Below are positions 1 through 38,948 of a stretch of 64,000 nt of DNA, in pieces. The notes under the pieces are model-generated. The model was not told where the DNA came from, did no database searches, and was given only the letters and a program-made list of their open reading frames with translations. Source of the DNA: Sphingopyxis fribergensis (GTDB lineage: Bacteria; Pseudomonadota; Alphaproteobacteria; Sphingomonadales; Sphingomonadaceae); assembly GCF_000803645.1 (NCBI RefSeq), contig NZ_CP009122.1, forward strand, positions 410,501-474,500, given 5' to 3'. The translations under genes and the position numbers were made by a program. Position 1 is the first letter of the stretch. Each line of letters begins with the position of its first letter.

Positions 1-515
1 GGGGCGTCGCCGATGTCGCGCCCTCCTCCAAGGTGCCATTTGCCGAAATGGCCTGTGGCATAGCCCGCCTGCTGCAACAGGCGGGGCAGCACCGGGAGCG
101 AGGGATCGAGCCAGTCGGCCTGACCGAACGCCTGGTTGCGCTTGCGGTCGTGGATATAGGTGACGAAGCGATCACGCGCCGGGAAGCGTCCGGTCATGAA
201 GCCCGCTCGCGAGGGCGAGCAGATCGGCGCGGCGTCGTAGAACTGGGTCATGACCATGCCGTCGCGGGCAAGCGCGTCGATGTTCGGCGTTGCGACTAGG
301 CGATTGCCGGTGAGCGACAGGTCGGCAAAGCCCATATCGTCGATCAGGATGAAAAGAATGTTGGGCTGCGCCGCGGCGCGCGGCGCCGGTTTCACAGGCG
401 CGGGTGCGGACGCCTCGGAAGCCCAAGCGCTCGATAGCCCTGCGCTCCCCATTGCAAAAAGGGCGGCCGCCGCCACCCCGATCAGCGCACGCCGCGAAGG
501 CTTCACCGATTTCAT
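1..515 (-). CDS. S1 sulfatase, N-terminal part (cut by window edge)
   Basis: This frame is open from the ATG at 515 to base 1, so only about 171 N-terminal residues are present and the C-terminus lies outside. A GGGAGG ribosome site precedes the ATG. The first ~32 residues form a signal peptide (KPSRRALIG then an Ala-rich stretch), so it should act in the periplasm. Sulfatase features follow: PNILFILIDDMGF supplies the first metal-binding aspartates, C99-SPS-R103 is the formylglycine motif, and GKWHLGG lies near the right place. It closely resembles the sulfatases at 26293-27789 and 34256-35734, which carry CSSSR and CSASR instead. It is divergent from the glycoside hydrolase at 642, with a shared motif at 558-572 between them. 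Type-I sulfatase is secure; the substrate is inferred from context. Confidence 0.9.
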   Translation of the reverse strand, partial: MKSVKPSRRALIGVAAAALFAMGSAGLSSAWASEASAPAPVKPAPRAAAQPNILFILIDDMGFADLSLTGNRLVATPNIDALARDGMVMTQFYDAAPICSPSRAGFMTGRFPARDRFVTYIHDRKRNQAFGQADWLDPSLPVLPRLLQQAGYATGHFGKWHLGGGRDIGDA

Positions 516-557
516 TCTTTCCTCCCTTGCTTGGTCTCGTGCCATCGTTATATCTGT

Positions 558-572
558 ATTATCGTATAATTA
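558..572. promoter_or_regulatory. AT-rich candidate operator, copy 1
   Basis: ATTATCGTATAATTA lies between the divergent sulfatase (start 515, minus) and glycoside hydrolase (start 642, plus). It matches the ATC-n-TAT core shared by the other promoter regions of this locus. Binding by the FadR-type regulators encoded here is an inference. An AT-rich -10 region is the alternative. Confidence 0.5.
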
Positions 573-641
573 AGATGAGTCAAGTTTTGCTGATGGCGAT
601 CCCTGTTTGAAGGGCTGCCGCTGATCGGGGAGGGGAATGAA

Positions 642-1766
642 ATGCGAATGAGACGGATTTTGGCGATGGGTGCCGCGATGCTCAGCCTGCCCGCCGCCGC
701 TGCGGCACAGGGCGCCTTGGGCGCCAATTTCAACGAACATTTCGAGGATGTGAGCTACCGTGAACTCGAACAGGCCCAGGCGAAGTGGATTCGCCTGTTC
801 GTCCCGATGCCGCAACTCGATCGCGGCGCCGCGGAGCATGGCGCGGTCAAGGCGATCCTTGATGCTGGCGACCACGGCTACAATACCATCTTCACGCTCA
901 AATGGCCGTATAGCGACCGCGATTTCCCAAAGGCGGGCAGCGCCGAATTCCAGCGTGAGCTGGTCCGGCTCGATGCCTTACTGCCGCTGGTGATGGGCAA
1001 GGTCGACATATTGGTGATCGGTAACGAACCCTATTTCGAAACGCGCGAGAAGGACCGCGATCTCGACCTCAACGCCTTTTACGAAGTGATGGCGGCGCGG
1101 GTGATCGCGTATCGCAAGGCGCACTGCGGCGCGAACTGCAAAACCAGGCTTTATATGGGCGCGCTAAACCGTCTCGACCTCAAAAAGAATATCACCCCGT
1201 CGACCGAGCGCTGGCTGGCTTATGTGAAAGCGACGCCCGAGATCGAGGGCGTCAACATCCACCCCCATGTTCCCAAGATCGAGCTGTCGAAAGCATTTCT
1301 CGACTATATCCTGCCGCGGATGCGTCCCCAGCAGACGTTCATCGTCACCGAATTCTCGCTCGTCGGCTGGTGGCAACAGAATTTGCAAAAGCCGGTCGCT
1401 CCCGCCTTTGCCGATAAATATGGCGCGCCGCGCGATGCGCAGAATTGGCAGATCATCAAGGCGGCGCTGGAAACACCTTTTCCGAAGCAGCAGTGGGACG
1501 ACTTCCTGCGGATGAGTCCGTGGTTCGAAGGCCGCAAACATTATCTGGCGAACCAGATGAAGATGTTCCGCGACACCGGTCGCCTCGCGGTCGCGACCTA
1601 CGGCTTCAAACAGGGCAGTTCGATGTCGAACAATTTCGGCCCCGACAAGACGCCCTGGCTGCTCAACAGCGTCTATGCGGGACGCACCATAAAGCCGAAC
1701 CCCGATGGCACGACGGCATTCAACTATGCGTGGATCGACGATTTCCGGCGCTTGCAGACGAAGTGA
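642..1766 (+). CDS. Secreted clan GH-A-like glycoside hydrolase, family not recognised (copy 1)
   Basis: The product is 374 residues with a signal peptide ending about AAAAQG. GAGGGG precedes the ATG at a good distance. The pattern fits a clan GH-A TIM barrel. E129 in DILVIGNEPY looks like the general acid/base after strand 4, and E237 in TFIVTEFSLV looks like the nucleophile at strand 7, 108 residues later. WIRLFVPM and VNIHPHV fit other barrel strands. I cannot place it in a named family. A close paralogue (373 residues) lies at 3457-4578 with a sulfatase between them. Because no classical endo-galactanase is recognised in the locus, this pair is the best candidate for backbone cleavage of the sulfated polymer. 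Glycosidase fold is likely; specificity is unknown. Confidence 0.8.
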   Translation: MRMRRILAMGAAMLSLPAAAAAQGALGANFNEHFEDVSYRELEQAQAKWIRLFVPMPQLDRGAAEHGAVKAILDAGDHGYNTIFTLKWPYSDRDFPKAGSAEFQRELVRLDALLPLVMGKVDILVIGNEPYFETREKDRDLDLNAFYEVMAARVIAYRKAHCGANCKTRLYMGALNRLDLKKNITPSTERWLAYVKATPEIEGVNIHPHVPKIELSKAFLDYILPRMRPQQTFIVTEFSLVGWWQQNLQKPVAPAFADKYGAPRDAQNWQIIKAALETPFPKQQWDDFLRMSPWFEGRKHYLANQMKMFRDTGRLAVATYGFKQGSSMSNNFGPDKTPWLLNSVYAGRTIKPNPDGTTAFNYAWIDDFRRLQTK

Positions 1767-1856: not shown

Positions 1857-3434
1857 TTGAATTTTGCATTGTCACGGCGGGCGGCGCTGCTTGCGGGCGC
1901 GGGGGCTGCCGTTCTGCCCCGCGTTGCGACCGCGTCGACCGCGCGGGGCAAGCCCAATATCATCATCATCTATGCCGATGATCTCGGCTATGGCGATCTG
2001 GGCTGTTACGGTGCCACGGGGCTCCGTACACCCAATGTCGACAAGCTCGCGGGGCGCGGGACGCGCTTCGTCAACGCGCATTCACCGTCGGCGACCTGTA
2101 CCCCGTCGCGCTATGCGTTGCTCACCGGCGACTATGCGTGGCGCGCATCGGGTGTCCAGATATTGCCCGGCGACGCACCGGCGCTGATCCGGCCGGGGCA
2201 GTTCACGCTGCCGCATATGCTGAAAAAAGCCGGCTATGCGACGGGCATCGTTGGCAAATGGCATCTTGGCCTTGGCGACGGCGAGGTCGACTGGAACGGC
2301 GAGATTGCGCCCGGCCCGCTCGACGTTGGATTCGACTATGGCTATTTCATGCCCGCGACGCTCGACCGCGTCCCCACCGTGCTGATCGAGAATAGGCGGG
2401 TGGTGAACCTCGATCCCGCCGACCCGATCCACGTCGATTATCGCACCAAGGTCGGCGACGAGCCAACGGGTGCCGAACATCCCGATCGGTTGAAATTCGG
2501 CGCCGATCCCGAACATTCGAACACGATCGTCAACGGTATCAGCCGCATCGGCTATATGACCGGCGGCCGCTCGGCGCGCTGGAAGGACGAGGATCTGACC
2601 GACCAGCTGCTCGGCAAGGCGATCGATTTCGTGGCGGCGCGCAAGGATGCGCCCTTCTTCCTCTATTTCGCCATGAACGAACCGCATGTGCCGCGTGCGC
2701 CGCATCCGCGCTTTGCCGGCAAATCGGAGATGGGACCGCGCGGCGATACGATCCTTCAGTTCGACTGGACTGTCGGCGCGCTGATGGACAAGCTCGAAGC
2801 GCTGGGCATCGCCGACGATACGCTGGTGATCCTCAGCAGCGACAATGGTCCGATCCTGTTCGACGGATATCAGGACCGGGCGGTCGAACTGGCGGGCGAG
2901 CACAAGCCGTCGGGCCCGTTTAGCAGCGGCAAGTACAGCATTTACGAAGGCGGTACGCGGGTTCCGATGATCGTTAGCTGGCCGGGTCATGTCCGCGAAG
3001 GTCATATGTCGAAAGCGCTGGTCGATCATGTCGATGTCGTCGCATCGCTTGGCGCGCTGGTCGGGCAGGGGCTGCCTCGGGATGCCGCAGTCGACAGTTT
3101 CGACATGCTGGTGCCCTTGATGGGCCGCAGCGAGCGCGGCCGCGACTATGTGATCGAAGATACCAAGCTGATGGTGACGACGGGGACGAAGGTCGCGAGC
3201 AGCGGAGCGCGCATCCTGGCGATCCGGTCGGGCGACTGGAAGTTGATCCGCGGCAGCGTCGAACCCCATGAATTCCACGGCAACGCGATCGGGACGCTGC
3301 CGACGCATCAGCTCTATAACCTGGCCCGCGATCCGGGCGAGCGCCAGAACCTCGCCGATACAATGCCCGATCTGACCCGAAAGCTGGCGGACTGGCTCGA
3401 CAAAATCGAAAAGGATGGCCGCAGCCGGCCGTGA
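1857..3434 (+). CDS. S1 sulfatase with Tat-like signal, TTG start
   Basis: The product is a 525-residue type-I sulfatase. The start is TTG at 1857 with AGAGG at 1844-1848. The only upstream ATG (1849) opens a frame that stops at 1860. The N-terminus LSRRAALLAGAGAAV resembles a twin-arginine signal, which would suit a cofactor-containing enzyme folded before export. Family features are IIIYADDLGYGD (metal aspartates), C81-TPS-R85 (formylglycine site), GKWHLG, and SSDNGP followed by K for the second metal and sulfate site. The paralogous GH-A-like hydrolase follows at 3457, so both products probably act on the same sulfated oligosaccharide. Its sequence differs clearly from the paralogous trio at 1, 26293 and 34256, so a different sulfate position is likely. 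The exact position is unknown. Confidence 0.93.
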   Translation: MNFALSRRAALLAGAGAAVLPRVATASTARGKPNIIIIYADDLGYGDLGCYGATGLRTPNVDKLAGRGTRFVNAHSPSATCTPSRYALLTGDYAWRASGVQILPGDAPALIRPGQFTLPHMLKKAGYATGIVGKWHLGLGDGEVDWNGEIAPGPLDVGFDYGYFMPATLDRVPTVLIENRRVVNLDPADPIHVDYRTKVGDEPTGAEHPDRLKFGADPEHSNTIVNGISRIGYMTGGRSARWKDEDLTDQLLGKAIDFVAARKDAPFFLYFAMNEPHVPRAPHPRFAGKSEMGPRGDTILQFDWTVGALMDKLEALGIADDTLVILSSDNGPILFDGYQDRAVELAGEHKPSGPFSSGKYSIYEGGTRVPMIVSWPGHVREGHMSKALVDHVDVVASLGALVGQGLPRDAAVDSFDMLVPLMGRSERGRDYVIEDTKLMVTTGTKVASSGARILAIRSGDWKLIRGSVEPHEFHGNAIGTLPTHQLYNLARDPGERQNLADTMPDLTRKLADWLDKIEKDGRSRP

Positions 3435-3456
3435 CTATCGTCAAGGGAGAATGTTG

Positions 3457-4578
3457 ATGCGGGGATTATGGACTGCCGTGGCGGCGATCGCATGTCTGCC
3501 GGGCACGGCACAGGCGCAGAGCGCGCTTGGCGTCAACTATAACGAACATTATGAGGACGTCGATTATCGCGACCTGGAAAAAGCCGATGCGCGCTGGATC
3601 CGGCTGTTCGTGCCCATGCCGCAGGTCGATCGCGGCGCTGCTGAGCATGGCGCGATCAAGGCGACGCTCGATGCGCATGCACGCGGATACAAGACGATCC
3701 TGTCGTTGAAGTTCCCTTATAATCGCGGCGATTTTCCCAAGGCGGGCACGCCGGCATTCCAGCGCGAACTGGCGCGCGTCGATGCGGTGCTGGCGCTGGT
3801 GATCGGCAAGACCGATATCCTCGTGATCGGAAACGAGCCCTATATCGAGAGCCGCGAGGGCGATCGCGATCTTGATCTGAACGCCTTTTACGAAGCGATC
3901 GCACGGCATGTGATCGCCTATCGCGCCAAGGCCTCTTCCGGGAGGTGCAAGACCAGCCTCTACATGGGCGCGCTCAACAGGATCGATCTGAAGAAGAACC
4001 GGACGGCGTCGACCCAACGCTGGATGGAATTCGTCAAGGCGACGCCCGAAATCGACGGGGTCGACATCCACCCGCATATCCCGGCGATTCAGGCGTCGAA
4101 GCCCTTCCTCGACTATATCCTGCCGCGCATGCGGCCCGAGCAGACCTTCCTCGTCACCGAATTCTCGCTGGTCTGGTGGTGGCAGCAGAATATGAAGGGG
4201 ACCGTGCCGGCGATGTTCGCGAACAAATATGACGCGCCGAAGGACGCGCAGAACTGGCAGATCATCAAGGCGGCGCTCGAGACGCCTTTCCCGAAGGAAC
4301 AGTGGGATGATTTCTTGCGGATGAGTCCGTGGTTCGAAGGCCGGAAGCATTATCTGCGCAACCAGATGAAGATGTTCCGCGACTCCGGTCGCCTCGCGGT
4401 CGCGACCTATGGCTTCAAACAGGGCAGTTCGATGTCGAACAATTTCGGCCCCGACAAGACGCCGTGGCTGATCAACAGCGTCTTTGCGCCCGCGACGATC
4501 CGCAAGAATCCGGACGGTAGTGCCGCGCCCAGCTATGCATGGTTCGACGATTTCAAAGCGCTTCAAAAGGGTAAATGA
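3457..4578 (+). CDS. Secreted clan GH-A-like glycoside hydrolase, family not recognised (copy 2)
   Basis: The product is 373 residues, a close paralogue of the protein at 642-1766 with most positions identical and only short substitutions. The ATG at 3457 is chosen because AAGGGAG (3443-3449) sits correctly for it and is too close to the ATG at 3451. The frame is open back to 3415, but that would overlap the sulfatase. The signal peptide ends near TAQAQS. The probable catalytic pair is E127 (VIGNEPY) and E235 (VTEFSLV). Position 237 onward differs from copy 1 (WWW against GWW), which may alter the -1 or +1 subsite. The stop overlaps the next start as ATGA. A duplicated pair in one locus suggests related but different linkages or sulfation patterns; this is inference. 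Confidence 0.8.
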   Translation: MRGLWTAVAAIACLPGTAQAQSALGVNYNEHYEDVDYRDLEKADARWIRLFVPMPQVDRGAAEHGAIKATLDAHARGYKTILSLKFPYNRGDFPKAGTPAFQRELARVDAVLALVIGKTDILVIGNEPYIESREGDRDLDLNAFYEAIARHVIAYRAKASSGRCKTSLYMGALNRIDLKKNRTASTQRWMEFVKATPEIDGVDIHPHIPAIQASKPFLDYILPRMRPEQTFLVTEFSLVWWWQQNMKGTVPAMFANKYDAPKDAQNWQIIKAALETPFPKEQWDDFLRMSPWFEGRKHYLRNQMKMFRDSGRLAVATYGFKQGSSMSNNFGPDKTPWLINSVFAPATIRKNPDGSAAPSYAWFDDFKALQKGK

Positions 4579-6482
4579 CCGTGAAGATGAAAAGCTGGAT
4601 CACCGGCCTGACGCTGGCAGCGCTGTCTCTGGCGCCCTCGGCCGGCGCGCAGCAGAAGCTCAAGGCCGCGGTCGCCGACGACATTTTCGCCGACCATCCG
4701 TCGATGGACAAAAATGCGACGGTCATGCCCGCCGCCGACGCGAAGCCCGTCGCGCCCGTCTTTTCCGAACGGCCGATCGGCGATGCGTCGGTCGCGCGAC
4801 TAACCGGTGGCGGCTGGATTCTCACCGGAACCCAGCTGCGCAGCGGCGCGCGCCACGGCGTCGAATTGTGGACGTCGGCCGATGGCAAGGCATGGAAGGG
4901 GCTGGGCCCGGCCAAGATCTCGGGCGCGGGGATCGTGCCCGGCGATGTGTCCGAACGCTATCTCGCGCCGTCGGTGACGGTCGCCGGGGACAAACTCTAT
5001 CTCGCCTTTTCCGACAAGACGGGCTGCGCGCGGATTGCGACGGGTTCTGCCGCGCAGCCCGGCGCTGGCTTCGCGGCTTCGCCCTGCTTGGTCGAGGATG
5101 CGTCCGACGTGGCGTTGTTCGTCGACAAGGACGGGACTGGCTATCTGCTGTGGGGCGGGGGCACTATTGCCAAACTCCATCCCGGTTTCGCCAAGCTCGC
5201 CGAGGCGCCGCGTTTCCTGAAACCCGATCAGGCGTTGTTCGCCAAGCATCCGCCGGTCGGGAAGGACTGGCCGGTGCGGACGCGCGTCGGCATGCGCGGC
5301 GCGGCGATGGTCCGCGACGGCGACCGCTATATCCTCGCCGCGAGCGAGGTCACGGGGCGGATGCGCACGGCGACCGAGGATCTGTTCGTCGCCGAGGCGC
5401 CGACGCCATATGGCCCGTTCACAATGCGCGCGCTCGCGGTGCCACACGCGGGCCGCGGGTCGCTGGTGATGCTCGATGACGAGCGGCTCGCCGCAGTCTA
5501 CAACCCCAAATGCGACGACGGCTTCGCGATGTTCTGCGAACAGGTCGGGCTGGTGCCGCTCGAACGCGCGCCCGACGGGCGGCTGCGCCAGGCCGCGTCG
5601 GTGATTACCGAGGACAGCGCGGTCGCGGCGCGCAAGGCGCTGATCACCAGCGAGACGATGCGCGATCCGTCGGTGACGCTCGGCGGCGACGGCTTCTACT
5701 ATCTCGTCGGGACGCTCGACGGTTATGGCTATCACAAGCCCGACGGCGGTGTGAAATTGTGGCGATCGGCCGACCTCAAAAAATGGGACGAGGTCGGCTT
5801 CGTCTGGAAGTGGGAGGGCATGGGCTATGATTTCGGCAAGAATATCGCCGAACTCTGGGCGCCCGAGATCATGTGGTCGGCGCGCGACAAGACCTATTAT
5901 CTTGCCTTTTCGGTGATGGAGAAGGGCGTCGGGGGCAAGACCTGGCTCTACCGCTCGACGACCGGCAAGGCCGATGGGCCTTATGAAAATGTCACCAAAA
6001 GCTTCTTCGTCAAAGGCATCGACGGCTTTCCGTTCGAGGATGATGATGGCCTATATTTCCTATGGGGCGGCGGCAGCATCGGCAAACTCAACGGCGCGCG
6101 GAGCGGCTTCGAGGGACCGGTGCATACCCTTGTCGACGCCGACGGCGACCATGTCGGTTATGAGGGCAACGGCTTGATCAAGGCGAACGGCGTCTATTTC
6201 CTGACCGGCGCCGAATGGCACGGGCCGCTGCGCACGCACGGCACCTACGACATGATGTACGGCACGTCGAAGAGCCTGTTCGGTCCCTATACGCAGCGCC
6301 GCATGGGGGCGCCGCACGGCGGCCACGGCACCGCGTTCCGCGATAAGCAGGGCCGCTATTGGTACACGATGTTCGGCAATGACCCGACCGCGCCCTGGCG
6401 CATGCAGTTCGGGCTGGTGCCGATCGATATCGGCGACGCTGCTTCCATCGGCATCCCGCGGTCCGACAGCGTTCGCGACTGA
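4575..6482 (+). CDS. Secreted tandem GH43-like double beta-propeller protein
   Basis: The product is 635 residues with a signal peptide ending near AGAQQ. The start overlaps the previous stop (ATGA), so translation is probably coupled. Two similar halves are visible. The first has GGWILTG, YLAPSVTVAGDKLYLAFS and YLLWGGGTIAKL. The second has MRDPSVTLGGDGFYYLVGT, LWAPEIMW, YYLAFS and YFLWGGGSIGKL. This is the GH43/GH-F propeller pattern repeated twice, about twice a normal GH43 domain. The RDPS aspartate in the second half fits the GH43 base. The equivalent position in the first half reads LAPS, so that half may be non-catalytic. It ends an operon of sulfatase and GH-A-like enzyme and is followed by a strong terminator. 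Likely role is exo-glycosidase or glycan binding; family assignment is approximate. Confidence 0.7.
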   Translation: MTVKMKSWITGLTLAALSLAPSAGAQQKLKAAVADDIFADHPSMDKNATVMPAADAKPVAPVFSERPIGDASVARLTGGGWILTGTQLRSGARHGVELWTSADGKAWKGLGPAKISGAGIVPGDVSERYLAPSVTVAGDKLYLAFSDKTGCARIATGSAAQPGAGFAASPCLVEDASDVALFVDKDGTGYLLWGGGTIAKLHPGFAKLAEAPRFLKPDQALFAKHPPVGKDWPVRTRVGMRGAAMVRDGDRYILAASEVTGRMRTATEDLFVAEAPTPYGPFTMRALAVPHAGRGSLVMLDDERLAAVYNPKCDDGFAMFCEQVGLVPLERAPDGRLRQAASVITEDSAVAARKALITSETMRDPSVTLGGDGFYYLVGTLDGYGYHKPDGGVKLWRSADLKKWDEVGFVWKWEGMGYDFGKNIAELWAPEIMWSARDKTYYLAFSVMEKGVGGKTWLYRSTTGKADGPYENVTKSFFVKGIDGFPFEDDDGLYFLWGGGSIGKLNGARSGFEGPVHTLVDADGDHVGYEGNGLIKANGVYFLTGAEWHGPLRTHGTYDMMYGTSKSLFGPYTQRRMGAPHGGHGTAFRDKQGRYWYTMFGNDPTAPWRMQFGLVPIDIGDAASIGIPRSDSVRD

Positions 6483-6559: not shown

Positions 6560-6561
6560 GT

Positions 6562-7425
6562 TCAGCGCGCGCGGTCGGCGTAGGCGGTCAAGATGCGGAG
6601 CCATGCGTCGGCGAAAGCACGCTGGCCCGGCCCGTCGAAATGGCAGCGGTCGTAGCGGTCCCCGGGCGGTACGAGCAAATTGGTTTCAGGGCCGAGGAAG
6701 ATGCCTTTCGCCGGATCGACAAGGCCGCGCTGCGCGGTCGTGATCGCGTCTTCATCCTTCCAGTCGCCGGGCTGGCCGCACCGGCTCGCCACCGAAATGA
6801 AGACCGGCGCATCGACCTTTGCGGCGCGCAACGTCGCGACGAGCGACGTGAAACTCGCGGCATAATCGGTGCTGGAGGTTTTCAGAGCAAAATCGCGTTC
6901 GCCCTGGTGCCAGAGGAAATGGGTGACGCGGTATCGGCTGCGGAGGTCGCCCACGACGCCGAGCAACATGCGATTGAGGTCGCCGCCTTCCTGCCACCGT
7001 CCGATCTTGGTGCCGCCGATCCCCGTTGTCGCGATGACGACCCGGTCATAGAGTCCCAATTCGATCAGCCGGTCGGCGAGCGGCGACCAGCTCTCGCCGC
7101 GCATCCCCGTCGCGCCGAGCAATGGCGAAGCGACCGGATAGCAATGGCCTGCGAAATAATTGACCGTCTTGCCCGAATGCTTGCTCGAAAAGCGCATCCC
7201 CCCGTGATTGGCGGAGTTGCTTTGGCCGGCGATCAGCAGGACGGCGGTTCGGTCAGTCTGCTTTGGACATTTTGTTGCTTTCCGGCCCGCAACCTCGACG
7301 ATGCGGCCAAGTTCGTCCTTGCGGTATTCGCTCGACGGCGCGGGCACGGGGTCGGCGGCGTGCGCGATCGTCACGCCGGCCGCAGCGACAAGCGCCAGAG
7401 CCAAGGCTTTGTTTGCGGTACGCAT
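6562..7425 (-). CDS. Secreted SGNH-type carbohydrate esterase (sialate O-acetylesterase / CE6-like)
   Basis: The product is 287 residues. The ATG at 7425 has a signal peptide right after it (ALALALVAAAGVTIAHA) and GGAG seven bases upstream, so the longer frame back to 7476 is not used. LIAGQSNS is the block I nucleophile serine, FLWHQGERD resembles the block III region of acetyl-xylan and sialate esterases, and DRCHFDGPGQ carries the Asp-x-x-His of the catalytic pair. It should remove acetyl or similar esters from glycans in the periplasm. It lies directly after galactose dehydrogenase, whose stop overlaps its ribosome site, so the two are co-transcribed. The target ester group is unknown. 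Confidence 0.8.
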   Translation of the reverse strand: MRTANKALALALVAAAGVTIAHAADPVPAPSSEYRKDELGRIVEVAGRKATKCPKQTDRTAVLLIAGQSNSANHGGMRFSSKHSGKTVNYFAGHCYPVASPLLGATGMRGESWSPLADRLIELGLYDRVVIATTGIGGTKIGRWQEGGDLNRMLLGVVGDLRSRYRVTHFLWHQGERDFALKTSSTDYAASFTSLVATLRAAKVDAPVFISVASRCGQPGDWKDEDAITTAQRGLVDPAKGIFLGPETNLLVPPGDRYDRCHFDGPGQRAFADAWLRILTAYADRAR

Positions 7426-7438
7426 GTCGCTGCTCCAA

Positions 7439-8394: not shown

Positions 8395-8471
8395 TTCCTA
8401 TCTGCCACGGTCCGCTGTATCAACGCTTCACTGAGCATATGGCGTGAATTTTGTGCATCGAGAGGAATTAT

Positions 8472-11137: not shown

Positions 11138-11150
11138 AGGAGTGAATAAC

Positions 11151-30899: not shown

Positions 30900-32204
30900 A
30901 TGGACGGCATCGGCAAGGCCACGATCCGGCGCGTCACATGGCGGCTCATGCCGCTGCTTTGCCTGCTGTATCTCGTCGCCTATATCGACCGGCAGAATGT
31001 CGCTTTCGCCAAACTTCAGATGGTCGGCGACCTCGGGCTCAGCGAAGCCGCCTATGGGCTGGGGTCGGCGTTATTCTTCCTCGGCTATTGCATCTTCGAG
31101 ATTCCGAGCAACCTGATCCTCGAACGCGTCGGACCGCGGTTGTGGTTCGCGCGGATCATTGGGGCGTGGGGTCTTGTCACGCTGGCGCTTGGCTTCGCCT
31201 GGACTCCGACGAGCTTCTATATCCTTCGCTTCCTGCTCGGTGTCGCCGAGGCCGGCTTTTTTCCGGGCGTACTCTATCTGCTTACCCTGTGGTTTCCGCA
31301 GACAGAGCGCGCGCGAGCAATCGGGCTGTTCCTGATCGCGAGCGCGTTCGCCAATGCCGTCGGCGCAGCGATTGGCGGCCTGCTGCTCGAACTCGACGGG
31401 GTGGCCGGGCTGCGCGGATGGCAGTGGGTTTTCATCGCAACTGCGATTCCAGCCTTGCTGCTGGTCCCGGTCGTTCTCGCGCGCCTGCCGCGTGGCCCTG
31501 CGGAGGCGCGGTGGCTGACCGCCGAACAAAAGGCTTGGCTCGCGGCGACGCTCGCCGAAGAAGGCGGCGCAAGGGAACATGCGAATCCCTTGCGTGCGCT
31601 TGGCGACCGGCGCGTGATCCTGCTCTGCATCGCTTTCCTCGGCTTCCCGCTTTCGGCCTATGGGCTGAGCTATTGGCTGCCGACGATCGTGCGCGGCTTC
31701 GGCGTGGGTGACGCCGCCAACGGTCTGCTCAACATCATTCCATGGCTCGCCGTCGCGGCCGCCTTGTGGTGGCTTCCGCGATGGGCGGCGGGCCGCGCCG
31801 GGGTGCGCCGCTTCATCGTCGGCCCGGCTTTTGTTGGCGCCACCTGTCTGGTGCTTGCGACCATGCTGCCGTCGCCGCCGCTTCAATTCGCAGCGCTGTG
31901 CATCGCCGCCGCCGCCATCTTTGCCGGCCAGCCCTTCTTCTGGGTGTTGCCCGGCCGGTTCCTTACCGGCGCGGCGGCGGCGGCGGGTTTTGCGGCGATC
32001 AACTCGGTCGGCAATCTCGGCGGCTTCGTCGCGCAGGCGGTAGTCCCGAAAATCCACGACGCGACGGGCAGCGACCTTGCGCCGATGCTCTTCCTCGCCG
32101 CGATGCTCGCTCTCTCGGCGGCCGCGATTTTCCTGATCGAACGAAGGATTCCGCGGGGCGACGCCGACCGATTTCCGGTTGCCACGGCCGCCGACTCTTT
32201 ATAA
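30900..32204 (+). CDS. MFS permease, anion:cation symporter type
   Basis: The product is 434 residues with 12 predicted membrane segments. YLVAYIDRQNVAFAKLQM after helix 1 and the GVAEAGFFPGVLYLLTLWFP block are typical of the ACS family, which includes galactonate (DgoT), hexuronate and tartrate permeases. It may import galactonate, uronates or another acidic product of the polymer, complementing the Na+/galactose symporter. It lies between the GH5-like gene and the GH2 gene, each side having an AT-rich motif. A sugar-acid substrate is inference from family. Confidence 0.88.
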   Translation: MDGIGKATIRRVTWRLMPLLCLLYLVAYIDRQNVAFAKLQMVGDLGLSEAAYGLGSALFFLGYCIFEIPSNLILERVGPRLWFARIIGAWGLVTLALGFAWTPTSFYILRFLLGVAEAGFFPGVLYLLTLWFPQTERARAIGLFLIASAFANAVGAAIGGLLLELDGVAGLRGWQWVFIATAIPALLLVPVVLARLPRGPAEARWLTAEQKAWLAATLAEEGGAREHANPLRALGDRRVILLCIAFLGFPLSAYGLSYWLPTIVRGFGVGDAANGLLNIIPWLAVAAALWWLPRWAAGRAGVRRFIVGPAFVGATCLVLATMLPSPPLQFAALCIAAAAIFAGQPFFWVLPGRFLTGAAAAAGFAAINSVGNLGGFVAQAVVPKIHDATGSDLAPMLFLAAMLALSAAAIFLIERRIPRGDADRFPVATAADSL

Positions 32205-32235: not shown

Positions 32236-34239
32236 ATGAATCATATTTCGAAGCTGCTGGTCGGCGCCGCGCTTTTGGCAAGCAGCGCCAGCGTCGCCGC
32301 CTATGCGCAGACCGCTGCGCCGCCGCCAAAGAAACCCGCCAATTCAACTGCTAACACAGCAGGCTACACTGCGCCCGGCACCACCGAGGGCGGGCCCGCC
32401 TATGTCGGCCCGATCATGAGCGAATGGGGCCGCAGGGTGACCCCCGAGAATGCGTGGCGCAGCTATCCGCGCCCGCAGATGGAACGCGACACCTGGATGA
32501 ACCTCAACGGGCATTGGGATTATGCGATCCGCCCCGCAAACGAAGCGCAGCCCACGGCGATGGACGGCAAGATCCTCGTCCCCTTCGCGGTCGAATCGAA
32601 ACTGTCGGGGGTCGCGCGCAAGCTGATGCCCGACGACCGGCTCTGGTATAAGCGCAGCTTCACGCTGCCCGCGAAATGGCCGGGCCAGCGCACGTTGCTG
32701 CATTTCGGCGCGGTCGATTATGAATCGACCATATTGGTCAACGGCGCGGTCGTTGGAAGCCATAAGGGCGGTTCGGACCCGTTCAGCTTCGACGTCACCG
32801 CCTATCTGCGACCCGGCGCGAACGAACTCGTCGTGCAGGTGACCGACCCGACCTCGACCGGCGACCAGCCGCGCGGCAAGCAGACGCTCGAACCGCGCGG
32901 CATCTGGTACACGGCGGTCAGTGGTATCTGGCAGACGGTATGGCTCGAGCCGGTGTCCGATCTTCATATCGCCGACGTTCGCGCGGTGCCCGACATCGAC
33001 AAGGGCGAACTGACGGTCGATGTCGCGCTCAGCAACACCGCGACCCCCGCCGATGCGGTGCGCATCACCGCGCGCGACAAGGGCAAGCTGATCGCGAGCA
33101 CGATCATACGCGGCAACCGGCAGGGCGTGCTCAAGATCCCGAAAGCGCGGCTGTGGTCACCCGACGACCCCTATCTCTATGACCTGACCGCCGAACTGGT
33201 GAAGGTGACCCCGCCGCAGGGCGCCGGCAACGACCGGACGGGGCTACCGCCGATGACCGATCGCGAGGTTCAGGCCTATGCCGCCGCGACGGTTGTCGGC
33301 AGCCCCGTCGACAGCGTCAAAAGCTATTTCGGGATGCGCAAGATCTCAACCGGCACCGATCCGAAGACCGGCAAGCTCGCGTTGCTGCTCAACAACAAGC
33401 CGCTCTTTCACAACGGCACGCTCGATCAGGGCTGGTGGCCCGAAAGCCTGCTTACCCCGCCGTCGGAGGAAGCCGCGCGCAGCGATATCGTGTTCCTGAA
33501 AAAGGCCGGCTTCAACATGCTGCGCAAGCATATCAAGGTCGAGCCCGCGCAATATTATCACGACGCCGACCGGCTCGGCATCCTGATCTGGCAGGACATG
33601 CCCTCGGGCGCGTTCGGCGATCAGGCGGTGCGGCGGCAGAGCGACCGCGAGGCGACCTTCTCGTCGGCGGGCATGGCGCAATATCAAAGTGAATTGTCGC
33701 GCATGATCGGCGCGCTGCGCGCTTTTCCGTCGATCGTGATGTGGGTGACGAACAACGAGGGCTGGGGCCAATATGACGTCAAGACCGTTGGCAGCATCGC
33801 CAAGAATATGGACCCCAGCCGGCTCGTCAATAACGCCAGCGGCTGGTTCGACGTGCCCGGAAGCGGGTCGGACGTCTATGACATCCACACCTACGACGAA
33901 GTGCCCGTCGCGCCCGCACCGCAGGCCGATCGCCCGATCGTGACCGGCGAATTCGGCGGCGTCGGCCTGCCGATCCCTGGGCATCGGTGGTTCACCGACC
34001 GCGACGCGCGCATCTATCAGTTTGCGACCGACAAGGAAGATTATCGCCGGCGCTACAAGATCAAGTTCGACGAGATCATCCGCCAGGCAAAGGAAATCGG
34101 ACTCGCGGCGTCAGTCTATACCGAAACCAGCGACGTCGAGGGCGAACTCAACGGCCTGCTCACCTATGATCGCGCGGCGTCGAAGCTGCCGGTCGAAGAT
34201 TTCGCCAAGATCGCCAAGCCTTTGTTCGAAGATAAATAG
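32236..34239 (+). CDS. Secreted GH2-family glycosidase (beta-galactosidase-type)
   Basis: The product is 667 residues with a signal peptide to about AYAQT. Domain order is GH2: jelly-roll sugar-binding domain (about 60-240, with MNLNGHWDY, WYKRSF, GAVDYESTILVNG), an immunoglobulin-like domain (about 245-320), and a TIM barrel. The barrel has FNMLRKHIKVEP, the acid/base E508 in TNNEGWG and the nucleophile candidate E572 in VTGEFGG. There is an Ala/Pro-rich linker after the signal. The sulfatase at 34256 follows in the same operon. A beta-galactosidase acting on desulfated galacto-oligosaccharides fits the pathway. The shorter length and the TNNEGW motif differ from LacZ, so other GH2 specificities remain possible. 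Confidence 0.87.
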   Translation: MNHISKLLVGAALLASSASVAAYAQTAAPPPKKPANSTANTAGYTAPGTTEGGPAYVGPIMSEWGRRVTPENAWRSYPRPQMERDTWMNLNGHWDYAIRPANEAQPTAMDGKILVPFAVESKLSGVARKLMPDDRLWYKRSFTLPAKWPGQRTLLHFGAVDYESTILVNGAVVGSHKGGSDPFSFDVTAYLRPGANELVVQVTDPTSTGDQPRGKQTLEPRGIWYTAVSGIWQTVWLEPVSDLHIADVRAVPDIDKGELTVDVALSNTATPADAVRITARDKGKLIASTIIRGNRQGVLKIPKARLWSPDDPYLYDLTAELVKVTPPQGAGNDRTGLPPMTDREVQAYAAATVVGSPVDSVKSYFGMRKISTGTDPKTGKLALLLNNKPLFHNGTLDQGWWPESLLTPPSEEAARSDIVFLKKAGFNMLRKHIKVEPAQYYHDADRLGILIWQDMPSGAFGDQAVRRQSDREATFSSAGMAQYQSELSRMIGALRAFPSIVMWVTNNEGWGQYDVKTVGSIAKNMDPSRLVNNASGWFDVPGSGSDVYDIHTYDEVPVAPAPQADRPIVTGEFGGVGLPIPGHRWFTDRDARIYQFATDKEDYRRRYKIKFDEIIRQAKEIGLAASVYTETSDVEGELNGLLTYDRAASKLPVEDFAKIAKPLFEDK

Positions 34240-34255: not shown

Positions 34256-35734
34256 ATGGCACGACGCTTCGCGGCGACCCGCTGGGTCACGACAACCATA
34301 CTGGCGACGCTCATGGGTGTCGCCGCACCCCCGGCCTTCGCCGCGCCGGCGGCCGCGCCATCGGCTCCGGCCTCCGCGGCGGCGGGCAAGCCCAATATCC
34401 TGTTCGTCCTCGTCGACGACATGGGGTTCGGCGACCTGTCGGTCATGGGGAACAAGAAGGTCCAGACCCCCAATCTCGACCGGCTGGCGCAGGGCGGCGT
34501 GCTGATGACGCAATTTTACGATTCCGCGCCAATCTGTTCGGCTTCGCGAGCGGGGCTCCTGACGGGGCGTTTTCCCGCCGAGGTCGGCTTCATCAACTAT
34601 GTCAGCGACCGCGCCTATAATGCCTCGATCGGCCAGGCGGACTGGCTCGATCCGAAGCTTCCCACCGTGGCGCGCCTTCTGAAAGGCGCCGGATATGAAA
34701 CGGCGCATATCGGGAAATGGCATCTCGGCGGCGGACGCGACATCGGCAACGCCCCATGGCCGACCGCTTATGGTTTCGACCATAGTTTCACGACCTTCGA
34801 GGGGCTGGGGCCGCGCGTCCTCGTGTCCGACGAGGAGCGCTTCCTTGCCGAGCAATCGGACGAACTGGGCGAGGGGCCGCGTTTCTGGGAACTCAAGACC
34901 AACCTCACCGGCCTCTATGCGAACATGGCGGTCGATTTCGTCGCGCAGCATTCGGACGAGCCCTGGTTCGTCAACCTGTGGCTCAACGATATGCACGACC
35001 CGTGGGCGCCCGACGACGAAAGCCTGTCGGATGTGATGGGCAAGGGCGAATCTTCGGACGATGACCGGATGCTTGCCTCGCTGGTGAAGATGGACAAGAC
35101 CCTCGGCCGCCTGTTCGACCGGCTCGACCAGATGGGCGAGATGGACAATACGCTCGTCATCGTGACCAGCGACAACGGACCCTCATCGGCACAGCGCTAC
35201 TATAAGGGAGACGAGGTCGCGCCGGGCAGCACCAACAATCTGCGCGGGCGCAAATGGAGCCTCTATGAAGGCGGTATCCGCCAACCGCTGATCCTCTATT
35301 GGCGCGGCCACACCAAGGCCGGCCATCGCGACGAGCGGACCGTGGGGCAGGGCGTCGACCTGCTGCCGACGATCGCCCGCATCGTCGGCGCCAAGACGCC
35401 AGCCGGGGTCGACGGGATCGACCTGTCGCCGGTGATCGGGGGCGCCGCCGTCGCCAATCGACCCGACCTTTATTGGGCCTATGGCAAGGAAGGCGCACCG
35501 AAGGAACCGCCCCAGCCGGCGATGGAGCGCGATCAGGCGCCGCCTTTTGCGATCCGCGAGGGTAACTGGAAATTGCTTGCCGAGGCCGGCGGTGCAAATC
35601 CTCAACTCTTCGATCTGGCGAGCGACCCCACCGAAGCCACCGATGTCGCCGCCGGCCAGCCCGCGATCCGCGACCGCCTGCTCGGCAAGCTCCAGGCGTG
35701 GATGGCGAAGCTTCCCAAATATCGGGCGCAATAA
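34256..35734 (+). CDS. S1 sulfatase with CSASR active-site motif
   Basis: The product is 492 residues from ATG 34256 with GGAAAGGGAG at 34241-34250; upstream open frame overlaps the GH2 gene. A signal peptide ends near PAFAAP, followed by an Ala/Pro linker. FVLVDDMGFGDLS, C94-S-A-S-R98, GKWHLGGGRDIG and VTSDNGPSS are sulfatase motifs. It is a close paralogue of the CSSSR enzyme at 26293-27789 across its whole length. It follows the GH2 gene and is closed by two terminators. Likely exo-acting on the same sugar residue as its paralogues, with a changed sulfate or linkage preference; this is inference. Confidence 0.92.
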   Translation: MARRFAATRWVTTTILATLMGVAAPPAFAAPAAAPSAPASAAAGKPNILFVLVDDMGFGDLSVMGNKKVQTPNLDRLAQGGVLMTQFYDSAPICSASRAGLLTGRFPAEVGFINYVSDRAYNASIGQADWLDPKLPTVARLLKGAGYETAHIGKWHLGGGRDIGNAPWPTAYGFDHSFTTFEGLGPRVLVSDEERFLAEQSDELGEGPRFWELKTNLTGLYANMAVDFVAQHSDEPWFVNLWLNDMHDPWAPDDESLSDVMGKGESSDDDRMLASLVKMDKTLGRLFDRLDQMGEMDNTLVIVTSDNGPSSAQRYYKGDEVAPGSTNNLRGRKWSLYEGGIRQPLILYWRGHTKAGHRDERTVGQGVDLLPTIARIVGAKTPAGVDGIDLSPVIGGAAVANRPDLYWAYGKEGAPKEPPQPAMERDQAPPFAIREGNWKLLAEAGGANPQLFDLASDPTEATDVAAGQPAIRDRLLGKLQAWMAKLPKYRAQ

Positions 35735-35781: not shown

Positions 35782-35815
35782 AAAGGGCGGCGGCAGATCG
35801 ATGCCGCCGCCCTTT
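35782..35815. terminator. Bidirectional terminator (second of two)
   Basis: A perfect 14-bp stem (35782-35795 with 35802-35815) has the self-complementary loop GATCGA. It lies five bases from the stop of the convergent TonB receptor and should end that transcript. Confidence 0.85.
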
Positions 35816-35819
35816 CTCG

Positions 35820-38639
35820 TCAGAATTTGACGCGGACACCGACCGAATAGGTCGTCTCGTCATACGCCATCTCGTTGTTGATATTGGAATATCCCGGATA
35901 GTCGTAATAGGTCGATGTGTTGCTTCCGAGGATATTGGTGCCGCCGACATCGACGCGGATTTTGTCGGTGATGTCGTATCCGATGTTGAAGTCGAGACGT
36001 CCCGCTCCGCGCGCATAGGTGACGAGCGCCGGCACCTCGAGCGAAGCGATCGTTTCTGCGGTCATCGGCCGCAACGTCGGCTCGCCGCTCGCGTCGAGCG
36101 AAAGATATTTCGAGCGATAGGTATATACGAGCCGTGCGCTGACCCCGCTCTTTTCGTACAACAGGCCGACAGTGTAATTATATTTCGACACGCCCTGCAG
36201 CGGATATCCCGCGAGCGGATCGTCCCCGCCAACCTTTGAATCGGCGAGGGTGAAGGCGCCCTGCACGCCAAGTCCCGACAGCGCGCCGGGGAGGAAGTCG
36301 AAGAAATATTGGCTGCTGAGTTCGATACCCTTCAGCGTCGCCTGCCCGACGTTGCGCGGGCGCGAAACCGCATAATCGACGCCATCGATCGCCTCGACCG
36401 CGCCGCTGGTGATGACGCGGTCGCTGATGTCGCGATAATAGCCGGCAATCGCGACATAACCGCTGGGGAAATAATATTCGAAGGTCGCATCGAGGCTCTC
36501 GGACTTCTGCGCCTTGAGGTCCGGATTGCCCGCATTGCCTGTGCTCTGAACCAGAGGATTGTTTGACTGGTTGAGCGTGATCGCCGGATTGAGCGAACCG
36601 AAATTCGGGCGGCGTAGCGACTTGGCATAGCCGAAGCGGATCTGAATATCGTCGCCGATCCGGAAACGTGCGGTCGCGTTCGGCAGCCAGTCATGGTCGA
36701 CCGTGTCGGCGGTCAGCCGGTCATACTCGCCCCCCCCTGCGGGTATGAACGTGCCGATCGTCCGGCTCGTGCGGATATAGCGCACGCCGACGACGCCATC
36801 CAGCGTGATGCTGTTCGATAGATCGGCTTCATATTTGCCCTGCACATAAGCGGCGAGCGTGTCTTCCTTGGCATCGAACGCGCGCCCGGGATCATAAGCT
36901 GGCCGCCCGGCAGGCAGCCCGAAATAGGCCCGCGCGGCGTCGAGACCTTCTTCGGAAAGCAGAAAGTCGGGGTTGGGGATGTAGAAGCGCGAACCATTGT
37001 TGAGGTCGGGTGCACGCGACCCGAGTGCAAGGAAGTCGTCGGGCAGGCCGGTGTTAGAGACAAGCACTGCTGCCGCGTCGTTTCCGGTGCCGATATTGCC
37101 GCCCGGCGTCGCCTTGTTCAGATTGACCGATTGTTCCTCGGCTGAACGATGCGCGTAACGAACGCCGACAGCGACGTTCGACAGAAAACCGTCCAGATCA
37201 TAATCGACATCGCCCTTCGCTTGGAACAGCTTGCCATGGTTCTCGGTGAAATTCTGGATCAGCGCATTGCGGATATAGAGATTGTCGCGGCTGAGCAGCG
37301 CGTCGCCGGGTACCGTATATTCGGCATGGCCATCGACATCCATCGTCACGGTTAGGCTCGGCAGTCGTTGTCCGATGTCCGATGTGATATTCTGCAGTTC
37401 GTATTTCGAGGTTTGATACGCGACATCGAGCACCGCGTTCAGCCGGCCCTCGTCATATTTCAGCCCGCCGGCGAATTGCTTGTTGTTCTGGTTGAGGTCG
37501 CGGGCCTGGGTCGTCTGGTTCGACACAAGGTTGGCGAAGGTCATGCTTTCGGGCTGGCACAGCTCGACAGGGTTGGCGAGTTGCGGCGCGGTCAGCGTCC
37601 AGGACTTGTTGCCGTCGGCGTCGGTCTGGATGACCGGATTGTTGCCGTTCGAGCGGACATAGGTGCTGATGCAGCTGGTGCCGGGCTTGATGTCGGTGAT
37701 CGTCGTGCCGTTGGTGAACGGCTGGATATTGGCGCCGTTACGGCTGCCGCGATCGCGGAAATAGGTGTAGAACCCTTCGACATAGGCTTCGAGAGACGGC
37801 GACGCCTGCCACTGCAGCGCGCCGTTGAGCTGGTGGCGCTCGATATAGCCTTGCTGCGGGAAATTCTGGAGGATGCCGGGGATGACATAACCCGGCGTGT
37901 TGAATGGCGCCGTGTTGGTGCTGCGCCGCTGGAACAGCACTGTCGTTGCGCGATAATAATCCGACTTCGAATAGGTGCCGTTGATCAGCGCGCCGATTTC
38001 GCCGATCCCGGTGTCCCAGCGATCGGTCGCGAGCAGGCTGAACTGCGGATTGATCTTGTCGACGCGGTCGCCGTAATTGGCGCGCCCGCCCAGCACGACG
38101 GTCGGATCCTTGAAATTGAACGGACGGTTGAGCTGAAGGTCGATGACCCCCGCGAGCCCGCCTTCGGTCAGGTCGGCGGTCTGGGATTTGAAGACGTTGA
38201 CGCGCGACAAGGCTTCGGCCGGCATGTCCTGCAAATCGAAATTGCGGCCGACCGTCGAAAACACCTCGCGTCCGTTCACGGTGGTCAGCACGTCGGGAAG
38301 GCCCCTCACGCGAACGTCGCCCAACTCGTTGTTGCGGTTGGTCGACACCTGCACACCGGGCACGCGCTGGAGCGCCGCTGCGGTCGTGGGGTCGGGAAGC
38401 TTGCCGATGTCCTGTGCGACGATCGCGTCGACTACCTGCACCGAATCGCGCTTGATATCGGCCGCGCGTTCAAGTGAACGGCGGATGCCCGTCACGACGA
38501 TGGCCTCATCGGTATCCTGCGGCGCTTCTGCGGCCGACGCGCTCTGCGCCGGGCCGGTCGGATCTGCGGATTGCGCCCAAGCCGCCTGGCTCGCGACGAT
38601 CGCGGACGCCGCGACGGACAGACCGATTTGCCTCTTCAT
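35820..38639 (-). CDS. TonB-dependent outer-membrane receptor (copy 2)
   Basis: The product is 939 residues from ATG 38639, where the signal peptide (SVAASAIVASQAAWAQS) begins directly; the frame is open to 38720 but lacks a site there. A TonB box EAIVVTGIRR is followed by the plug (IGKLPDPTTAAALQRVPGVQV, VRVRGLPDV, TVNGREV) and a barrel ending VGVRVKF. There is no STN domain. It is a paralogue of the receptor at 17964. Two receptors suggest uptake of oligosaccharides that differ in size or sulfation. The gene is monocistronic, bounded by the tandem terminators, with the AT-rich motif about 90 bases upstream. Confidence 0.94.
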   Translation of the reverse strand: MKRQIGLSVAASAIVASQAAWAQSADPTGPAQSASAAEAPQDTDEAIVVTGIRRSLERAADIKRDSVQVVDAIVAQDIGKLPDPTTAAALQRVPGVQVSTNRNNELGDVRVRGLPDVLTTVNGREVFSTVGRNFDLQDMPAEALSRVNVFKSQTADLTEGGLAGVIDLQLNRPFNFKDPTVVLGGRANYGDRVDKINPQFSLLATDRWDTGIGEIGALINGTYSKSDYYRATTVLFQRRSTNTAPFNTPGYVIPGILQNFPQQGYIERHQLNGALQWQASPSLEAYVEGFYTYFRDRGSRNGANIQPFTNGTTITDIKPGTSCISTYVRSNGNNPVIQTDADGNKSWTLTAPQLANPVELCQPESMTFANLVSNQTTQARDLNQNNKQFAGGLKYDEGRLNAVLDVAYQTSKYELQNITSDIGQRLPSLTVTMDVDGHAEYTVPGDALLSRDNLYIRNALIQNFTENHGKLFQAKGDVDYDLDGFLSNVAVGVRYAHRSAEEQSVNLNKATPGGNIGTGNDAAAVLVSNTGLPDDFLALGSRAPDLNNGSRFYIPNPDFLLSEEGLDAARAYFGLPAGRPAYDPGRAFDAKEDTLAAYVQGKYEADLSNSITLDGVVGVRYIRTSRTIGTFIPAGGGEYDRLTADTVDHDWLPNATARFRIGDDIQIRFGYAKSLRRPNFGSLNPAITLNQSNNPLVQSTGNAGNPDLKAQKSESLDATFEYYFPSGYVAIAGYYRDISDRVITSGAVEAIDGVDYAVSRPRNVGQATLKGIELSSQYFFDFLPGALSGLGVQGAFTLADSKVGGDDPLAGYPLQGVSKYNYTVGLLYEKSGVSARLVYTYRSKYLSLDASGEPTLRPMTAETIASLEVPALVTYARGAGRLDFNIGYDITDKIRVDVGGTNILGSNTSTYYDYPGYSNINNEMAYDETTYSVGVRVKF

Positions 38640-38948
38640 GCCTTCCACTCCCACCTGTTCGGGCTCCAGGCATTTTTGCCCCGTTGGCCTCGTGGGAAGA
38701 CGATGATTGGATGCTGTCACGAAGTCAATATATATATGATATATACGACTGCTGAATATTGGCCGTCGGCTTTCCGGCCACCGTTGTTCCGATGTCGCGC
38801 TTCATCGTGCCTCGGCGAGGACCTTCGATAGCTGGATGGGGTCGGCCTTTCAGCTTCGGTAGCGTCCTGTGCCGAACAGATGATGGAACCCGCCGGCCGG
38901 TCGGTACCATGCGCCGCGTGTCGTCTGGCGTCGCGTCCAGTGAAGCGG
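38640..38948. other. Intergenic region at the right border of the glycan locus
   Basis: This is the longest gene-free stretch. Its right part (38640-38760) is the upstream region of the TonB receptor and holds the AT-rich motif. I see no gene, repeat or terminator in 38761-38948. It separates the glycan locus from ordinary chromosomal genes. Confidence 0.6.
38728..38747. promoter_or_regulatory. AT-rich candidate operator, copy 9
   Basis: ATATATATATGATATATACG (reverse CGTATATATCATATATATAT) lies upstream of the second TonB receptor. On the minus strand it begins with TATATATCATAT as in copy 7. It is the last copy seen when reading rightwards. Confidence 0.5.

Follow-up and report, generated by a model that had tools for sequence, protein, structure and literature searches.

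A conserved gene block of Sphingopyxis fribergensis for a sulfated, probably galactose-containing glycan

Which polymer is degraded by a bacterium that keeps sulfatases, glycosidases and an oxidative route for galactose side by side? The question is raised by a locus of Sphingopyxis fribergensis that occupies much of a stretch of 64,000 nucleotides (positions 410,501 to 474,500 of the 4.99-Mb contig NZ_CP009122.1; hereafter the window) in a genome of 5.20 Mb and two contigs. The closest relatives of the window proteins are those of Sphingopyxis. The original prediction, made from the letters alone, had placed a sulfated-galactan utilisation locus at positions 1 to 38,760. The explanation that we favour, with moderate confidence and from gene families and their neighbourhoods, is that the locus is a polysaccharide utilisation locus (PUL) for a sulfated galactose-containing glycan with pentose or galactofuranose side groups. 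No paper on sulfatase PULs of Sphingopyxis was found in the open-licence literature.

A block of 30 genes and its conservation

The left flank was examined back to contig position 392,001 (stretch L010). The block comprises 30 genes over ∼44 kb, from window position -5,636 to 38,720 (Table 1). The right edge first proposed was thus sound, the last conserved gene ending at 38,720, whereas the left edge was set too far in: the sequence left of the window continues the block for ∼5.6 kb with a sulfatase (flank sulfatase), a receptor and the rest of sulfatase A. The block encodes eight sulfatases, a formylglycine-generating enzyme (FGE), three TonB receptors, a SASA esterase, SSF and MFS transporters, two FCD regulators, an aldose 1-epimerase and five enzymes of oxidative galactose catabolism, together with seven glycosidase-type proteins (a pair that we call ASL, three GH43 proteins, a GH5-like and a GH2 protein). 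Receptors, glycosidases, sulfatases with their FGE, a transporter and regulators are therefore contiguous, as in a sulfated-glycan PUL. The predicted inventory of the window was largely borne out: seven proteins match PF00884, the first being cut by the window edge and complete in the flank, and the FGE, the esterase and two receptors are all present by PF03781, SASA and receptor profiles. The glycosidase class was also recognised correctly, although there are seven members rather than six, two of them without a Pfam match.

Since 29 of the 30 genes recur as a single block in two other Sphingopyxis genomes, strain JAI108 and S. italica, the block is more than a chance assembly. Identities in each are 76–95% (tblastn), and gene order is the same for 28 genes. 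The SASA esterase is the single gene without a counterpart in these blocks. Sulfatase D closes the block on the right in both relatives, where receptor 4 is the last shared gene before it, whereas it lies behind receptor 3 here. A compact core is found in genome G160, with GH43_a, ASL, sulfatases E, B, D, C and F, a receptor and FGE; two genes scanned beyond it gave one receptor and one protein without a match.

Genome-wide, PF00884 has 12 matches, 11 of them above the cut-off, and 8 of the 12 lie within the block. A megablast of window positions 1–12,000 against plasmids revealed no plasmid copy of the locus; its 10 records covered at most 16% of the query, mostly the IlvD gene. In a comparison with JAI108 aimed at an empty site, the best match of the JAI108 left-flank protein (58%) lies at 804 kb of the S. 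fribergensis genome and the right-flank protein has no match at E ≤ 1e-40, and insertion and loss are not distinguishable.

Galactose route, sulfatases and glycosidases

The kinase for 2-keto-3-deoxygalactonate (KDGal) and the aldolase for its 6-phosphate (KDPGal) are secure assignments by profile score (PF05035, 250.3 bits against a cut-off of 25; NCBIfam PRK09140, 262.3 against 207). The dehydratase belongs to the NCBIfam subfamily PRK13017 (1010.8 bits, cut-off 684) and is the only one of three matches in the genome to exceed that cut-off. The dehydrogenase, the lactonase and the symporter fit at the family level. The block thus offers a candidate for each of the five steps of the De Ley-Doudoroff route, from the dehydrogenase through lactonase, dehydratase and KDGal kinase to the KDPGal aldolase, with the dehydrogenase and the dehydratase assigned at family or subfamily level. 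The set differs from the classical route, whose dehydratase is the enolase-type DgoD, in that its dehydratase is of the IlvD/EDD type, and it is embedded in a polysaccharide locus. Galactose as a product of the locus is well supported, and the idea of a sulfated, galactose-releasing polymer served by one block together with an oxidative route agrees with both the gene families and the conservation of the block.

All eight sulfatases match PF00884, and seven carry the C/S-x-P/A-x-R motif. Sulfatases B to F were searched against the PDB, and subfamilies are those of the best match. The closest solved relatives of sulfatase B are 7oze (E 1.2e-161) and 9bas, an 'S1_15A sulfatase' (2.4e-158); that of sulfatase C is 9bb9, an 'S1_8A sulfatase', at a distant 3e-37. 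Sulfatase D is best matched by 7all (9.1e-100), which we take to be BT4683, and sulfatase E by 6hhm (9.2e-86), presumably the S1_7 ulvan sulfatase; iduronate-2-sulfatase is also related to E. Sulfatase F is closest to 3ed4 (3.6e-58), the S1_16 carrageenan sulfatases being less close. Sulfatases A and G cluster with F, and the flank sulfatase with D. In an excerpt of a published account, S1_15 acts on 6-O-Gal/GalNAc (galactose or N-acetylgalactosamine), the S1_4 enzyme BT4683 on 3-O-Gal and S1_16 on 4-O-Gal/GalNAc (PMC10154612). Sulfatase B is accordingly a predicted 6-O-Gal/GalNAc sulfatase, and sulfatase D a predicted 3-O-Gal sulfatase.

The exception to the motif is sulfatase F, whose formylglycine site reads C-S-S-S-R, with neither proline nor alanine at the third position. 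Replacement of this proline by alanine is tolerated in FGE sites. The FGE of the block contains HLCAVNYC at residue 286, in its end stretch, with two cysteines five residues apart, presumably as in human FGE. The recognition site given in an excerpt of the FGE literature is CXPXR (PMC4505483). C-S-S-S-R is kept in all three orthologues (JAI108, S. italica and G160), and among the best 120 listed homologues, query included, a regular expression found the serine motif in 68, CSPSR in 29 and CSASR in 23. Because the serine is kept in orthologues and listed homologues and the FGE gene adjoins that of sulfatase F in four loci, C-S-S-S-R is a trait of this clade and not a sequencing error. No paper on CSSSR formylglycine sites was found in the open-licence literature.

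GH43_a has no PDB match at E ≤ 1e-5. Its residues D364, D483 and E530, which we take to be the Asp/Asp/Glu triad of GH43, are invariant in 13 of 13 aligned sequences; its structure model (pLDDT 69.5, pTM 0.52) was too weak for a fold search. Solved relatives of GH43_b are 9nxj (2.4e-65) and 3akf, 'alpha L-arabinofuranosidase II' (1e-62), and those of GH43_c are 3qz4 (6.5e-26) and 4nov (9.9e-24). The 7,998 scored relatives of the GH5-like protein, all significant and named cellulase or 1,4-beta-xylanase where a name is given, are too broad for its substrate to be fixed. The GH2 protein matches NCBIfam models for beta-galactosidase and beta-glucuronidase, none above its cut-off.

The remaining two glycosidase-type proteins, ASL-a and ASL-b, have no significant Pfam, NCBIfam or PDB sequence match. 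They were modelled as single-domain TIM barrels of 374–387 amino acids (aa), in which DSSP places the catalytic-type residues Glu129 and Glu237 after strands 4 and 7; E129 is found in 60 of 64 rows of the ASL alignment and E237 in 61. A (beta/alpha)8 fold with glutamates at the ends of strands 4 and 7 is the mark of clan GH-A, and the pair probably represents putative glycoside hydrolases of an uncatalogued clan GH-A-like family. Identity to the clan GH-A families GH1, GH5, GH10, GH53 and GH164 is 8–12% among the matches listed. Certain UniRef entries label ASL relatives GH128 or Asl1-like (PF11790), a likeness as TIM-barrel glycosidases that stands by annotation only; PF11790 does not match ASL at E ≤ 0.1, nor anything in the whole genome at E ≤ 10, and no paper linking Asl1-like proteins with sulfatases was found in the open-licence literature. 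Nine of 80 Sphingopyxis genomes contain ASL, as a tandem pair in all nine.

ASL loci in other bacteria and the nature of the polymer

When genome contigs were scanned with the ASL alignment, 51 loci emerged, of which 23 are proteobacterial (L016–L038) and 28 actinobacterial (L039–L066). Gene clustering placed sulfatase B in 19 of the 51, receptor 2 in 18 and GH43_a in 17, all in Proteobacteria. By a looser count, the 23 proteobacterial loci include a sulfatase in 19, a relative of the window's three GH43 proteins in 18 and a receptor in 22, and, within the stretch covered, a galactose dehydrogenase in 10 and an IlvD-type dehydratase in 9; these last two also flank ASL in Sphingomonas and Stakelama. 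The same count found GH2 relatives in 2 of the 28 actinobacterial loci, and GH43, receptor, dehydrogenase and IlvD-type dehydratase in none. Among 199 genomes sampled evenly from the organism's family, ASL occurs in three, GH43_a in the same three and sulfatase B in two of these, and the 196 genomes without ASL have neither GH43_a nor sulfatase B at E ≤ 1e-60. The GH5-like gene is present in 18 of the 199, including all three with ASL. Of 20 genomes that carry ASL loci (21 of the 51 loci), 19 have it, and in G047 it adjoins GH43_a and ASL. A tree of the 64 ASL rows requires at least five changes of the sulfatase-association label, and this association must therefore have been gained or lost several times. 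Outside Sphingomonadales, Steroidobacter agaridevorans (L020:10001-18718) carries ASL together with a distant relative of it (35%), a relative of sulfatase D and a sulfatase B that is 82% identical.

Two ASL loci are present in each of three Sphingomonas genomes (R-74633, HITSZ_GF and S. kyeonggiensis S00224). The first (L033, L032 and L036) carries sulfatase B, GH43_a and galactose enzymes; the second (L029, L034 and L038) lacks a sulfatase and carries GH115 and GH43, families established by profile scan in L034 and assigned by cluster in L029 and L038. In this second locus, the second tandem ASL copy (L029:8934, L034:8943 and L038:11175) has aspartate at both catalytic positions and glutamine in place of His207, and it looks like a changed or dead paralogue. 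Four actinobacterial loci (L039–L041 and L064) differ in content, each with some of the following: GH51-like, GH2 and sulfatase genes, a LacI regulator and genes for sugar uptake. GH115, GH43, GH51-like, GH2 and sulfatase genes in other ASL loci suggest pentose- and uronate-bearing galactoglycans, and what these loci share would be galactose together with pentose, the acidic group being either sulfate or uronate.

For the block itself, its three GH43 proteins and the genes found next to the core gene in other bacteria suggest that the polymer contains arabinose, xylose or galactofuranose. Among the polymers first listed, sulfated arabinogalactans and green-algal galactans consequently fit best, and no enzyme of 3,6-anhydrogalactose breakdown was recognised in the block, as predicted, by Pfam matches and without a dedicated search of the genome. 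Degradation might proceed as follows. TonB receptors would import oligosaccharides. The FGE would convert cysteine to formylglycine in the sulfatases while still in the cytoplasm, and these would then be exported. In the periplasm, galactose would be desulfated at O6 by sulfatase B, at O3 by sulfatase D and the flank sulfatase, and at other positions by A, C, E, F and G. The GH43 enzymes would take off side groups, and backbone cleavage would fall to the ASL pair together with the GH5-like and GH2 enzymes. Galactose would enter through the SSF symporter; dehydrogenase, lactonase and IlvD-type dehydratase would act in turn, and KDGal kinase and KDPGal aldolase would complete the conversion into pyruvate and glyceraldehyde 3-phosphate. 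The two FCD regulators probably sense a sugar acid of the pathway.

Several observations weigh against this reading. Sulfatases C (3e-37) and E and the A/F/G group are not close to any galactose sulfatase of known role. The claims of a complete galactose route and of a galactose symporter hold by family, but the dehydrogenase fits PF01408 without an equivalog-level NCBIfam match and the symporter scores 335.6 bits with PRK10484, against a cut-off of 401; moreover, IlvD-type dehydratases can presumably serve L-arabinonate too. Within the stretch covered, no galactose dehydrogenase is seen in 13 of the 23 proteobacterial ASL loci, and the compact G160 locus has no galactose cassette. A sulfatase occurs in just 3 of the 28 actinobacterial loci and was not found in 25; the 24 loci other than L039–L041 and L064, mostly from Streptomyces, gave no neighbours of the kind described, and none of seven proteins scanned from five of them is a glycosidase.

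The target could instead be a plain sulfated galactan, whether a lambda-type carrageenan or a galactan from seagrass or animals, with the GH43 proteins acting as exo-galactanases or being incidental; the galactose route is complete, and a GH2 protein is present. An excerpt describing the lambda-carrageenan cascade of Pseudoalteromonas distincta U2A names GH150, GH110, S1_8, S1_15 and GH2 (PMC12549532). The block resembles that PUL in its S1_15-related sulfatase (B, 2.4e-158), its distantly S1_8-related one (C), GH2, galactose as end product and several sulfatases per locus. However, the block lacks a gene that would fit GH150 or GH110 as judged by other Pfam matches and the ASL models, no GH150 or GH110 model having been run and the rest of the genome being unsearched, and C is far from S1_8. 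The block also adds three GH43 proteins, the ASL pair, a GH5-like protein, an S1_4-like and three A/F/G-type sulfatases, and has the oxidative galactose route built in. GH43_b and GH43_c resemble arabinofuranosidases or xylosidases, and GH43_a retains aspartate at the base position, a residue that we take to be lacking in the exo-beta-1,3-galactanase subfamily GH43_24. A plain galactan is therefore an unlikely target, and the lambda-type option named at the outset has lost ground.

That two independent units adjoin, a general galactose cassette (7,439–16,275) and a desulfating locus yielding mainly pentose or another sugar, seems more improbable still. The cassette is separable from the core, because 13 of 23 loci show no dehydrogenase and G160 consists of the core without it. 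Yet it lies between core genes, inside the block, in three Sphingopyxis genomes, the dehydrogenase and the dehydratase accompany ASL in Sphingomonas and Stakelama too, and the IlvD-type enzyme is the only PRK13017 member of the genome above cut-off. A target such as ulvan, an animal glycosaminoglycan or another sulfated polymer that is not a galactan, which the relatives of sulfatase E (6hhm and iduronate-2-sulfatase) and the KduI and receptor genes just left of the block might recall, is very hard to credit, as the block has no Pfam match for a polysaccharide lyase, for GH88/GH105 or for a rhamnose gene, and KduI and its neighbours are outside the JAI108 and S. italica blocks.

For a sulfated galactose-containing glycan with pentose or galactofuranose side groups, the xylogalactoarabinan of freshwater green algae can be named as a definite, if unproven, candidate. 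An excerpt on one freshwater algal polymer reports 43% arabinose, 27% galactose and 17% xylose, with sulfation and 6-linked 3-sulfated galactose (PMC5694217). The present data hold no tie between the organism and that alga, and no paper on a sulfated arabinogalactan degraded with sulfatase and GH43 was found in the open-licence literature. A bolder and doubtful proposal is that ASL founds a new clan GH-A family cutting the backbone of sulfated galactose/pentose polymers, for example the xylogalactoarabinan of freshwater Cladophora, that a uronate-capped, non-sulfated form of the same backbone is attacked by the GH115-bearing ASL locus of the three Sphingomonas, and that the sulfatase F clade uses a formylglycine site with serine for proline or alanine.

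Gene inventory, surroundings and significance

Table 1. Genes of the block in window coordinates; those marked L010 are in coordinates of the left-flank stretch. ORF, open reading frame.
Feature	Position	Strand	Profile match (E value)	Remarks
Flank sulfatase	L010:12864-14645 = window -5,636 to -3,855			Left end of block
TonB receptor in left flank	L010:14738-17476
Sulfatase A (S1)	1..545; full gene L010:17558-19045 = window -942 to 545	-	PF00884 (9.8e-52)	3' part in window; 495 aa; CSPSR; Tat-like SRRALIG at N-terminus (by eye)
ASL-a, secreted putative glycoside hydrolase, clan GH-A-like	642..1766	+
Sulfatase B (S1_15-like)	1857..3434	+	PF00884 (1.2e-52)
ASL-b	3415..4578	+		Paralogue of ASL-a, 73% identical
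GH43_a, two-domain	4575..6482	+	PF04616 (8.7e-36)	Match in two stretches
SASA-type carbohydrate esterase	6562..7476	-	PF03629 (7.9e-12)	Accessory; present in L018
Gfo/Idh/MocA sugar dehydrogenase, predicted galactose 1-dehydrogenase	7439..8356	-	PF01408 (4.5e-16)
IlvD/EDD sugar-acid dehydratase, predicted galactonate dehydratase	8451..10283	+	PRK13017 (1010.8 bits)
SMP-30/SGL sugar lactonase	10283..11137	+	PF08450 (8.3e-72)
Aldose 1-epimerase	11070..12299	+	PF01263 (1.4e-82)	Signal-like N-terminus
FCD/GntR-family regulator 1	12322..13074	-	PF07729 (1.1e-23), PF00392 (9.8e-12)
SSF sodium/sugar symporter, galactose predicted	13182..14780	+	PF00474 (7.7e-64)
KDGal kinase (DGOK)	14774..15649	+	PF05035 (2.4e-74)
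KDPGal aldolase	15646..16275	+	PF01081 (3.9e-29); PRK09140
Sulfatase C (S1_8-like, weak)	16301..17722	+	PF00884 (1.4e-37)	ORF opens 16136; start from relatives
TonB-dependent receptor 3	17964..20762	+	PF00593 (5.6e-37), PF07715 (6.4e-15)
Sulfatase D (S1_4-like)	20840..22555	+	PF00884 (9.9e-54)
GH43_b, alpha-L-arabinofuranosidase-like	22552..23634	+	PF04616 (4.8e-53)
Sulfatase E	23709..25277	-	PF00884 (4.2e-45)	ORF opens 25406; start inferred
FGE	25279..26253	-	PF03781 (1.7e-82)	No signal peptide by eye
Sulfatase F	26293..27789	-	PF00884 (5.3e-49)	C-S-S-S-R site
FCD/GntR-family regulator 2	27867..28664	+	PF07729 (9.3e-25)	Paralogue of regulator 1, same cluster
GH43_c, xylosidase/arabinofuranosidase-like	28661..29599	-	PF04616 (6.3e-48)
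GH5-like TIM-barrel glycosidase	29596..30750	-	PF00150 (1e-06)	Above cut-off
MFS transporter	30900..32204	+	PF07690 (1.1e-42)
GH2 protein, predicted beta-galactosidase-like	32236..34239	+	PF02837 (2.6e-17), PF02836 (1.5e-10)
Sulfatase G	34256..35734	+	PF00884 (1.5e-51)	Paralogue of F and A; CSASR; ORF opens 34022; start as database entry P0288
TonB-dependent receptor 4	35820..38720	-	PF00593 (1.1e-39)	Right end of block in window

Left of the block, at L010:5734-12578 (window -12,766 to -5,922), lie genes for KduI (5-dehydro-4-deoxyuronate isomerase), a CehA/McbA-like metallohydrolase of 718 aa without a Pfam match, TonB receptor 1 and FCD regulator 0. These were considered as members of the block and dropped, because the JAI108 and S. 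italica blocks begin at the flank sulfatase; they form a separate unit. Further left are an Mrr-type restriction endonuclease (L010:276-986) and a large serine recombinase (L010:2509-4272), and the latter would fit acquisition of the block as a unit. Beyond the right end come genes for an Hsp70-like protein and a TetR regulator as well as those of an efflux system; none of these stands beside the block in JAI108 or S. italica.

Elsewhere in the window, at 55134-60427 (-), genes for a phytase (PF02333), a purple acid phosphatase and a TonB receptor form a phytate or organophosphate uptake cluster, and a heparinase II/III-like protein (PF07940) adjoins a ribulose-phosphate 3-epimerase at 60643-62421 (-). 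A tRNA-Arg reported by ARAGORN at 43010-43104 (+) falls within an HlyD-type ORF (42447-43598) and is probably a false call. At 816–838 kb of the genome (L011 and L012), three GH92, a GH125 and a GH43 protein, two sulfatases and another FGE-like protein mark what appears to be a second locus, for a sulfated or decorated mannoside.

In sum, the block is by its gene content a sulfated-glycan utilisation locus of an ordinary kind, set apart by the putative, uncatalogued glycosidase family in its core and by a formylglycine motif that deviates in a conserved way. Most discussion of sulfated polymers concerns the sea, yet the block recurs in Sphingopyxis and Sphingomonas from several settings; a metagenome of a lake bloom and an isolate from plant roots are among those named in record titles. 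The block constitutes a defined gene set for probing the sulfated glycans of freshwater and soil. ASL is a candidate new glycoside hydrolase family, the possible linkages of which are narrowed by its neighbours, and the sulfatase F clade offers natural sulfatases whose activation site differs from the textbook motif. If the substrate is indeed of the xylogalactoarabinan type, the block would be the first locus described for such a polymer.

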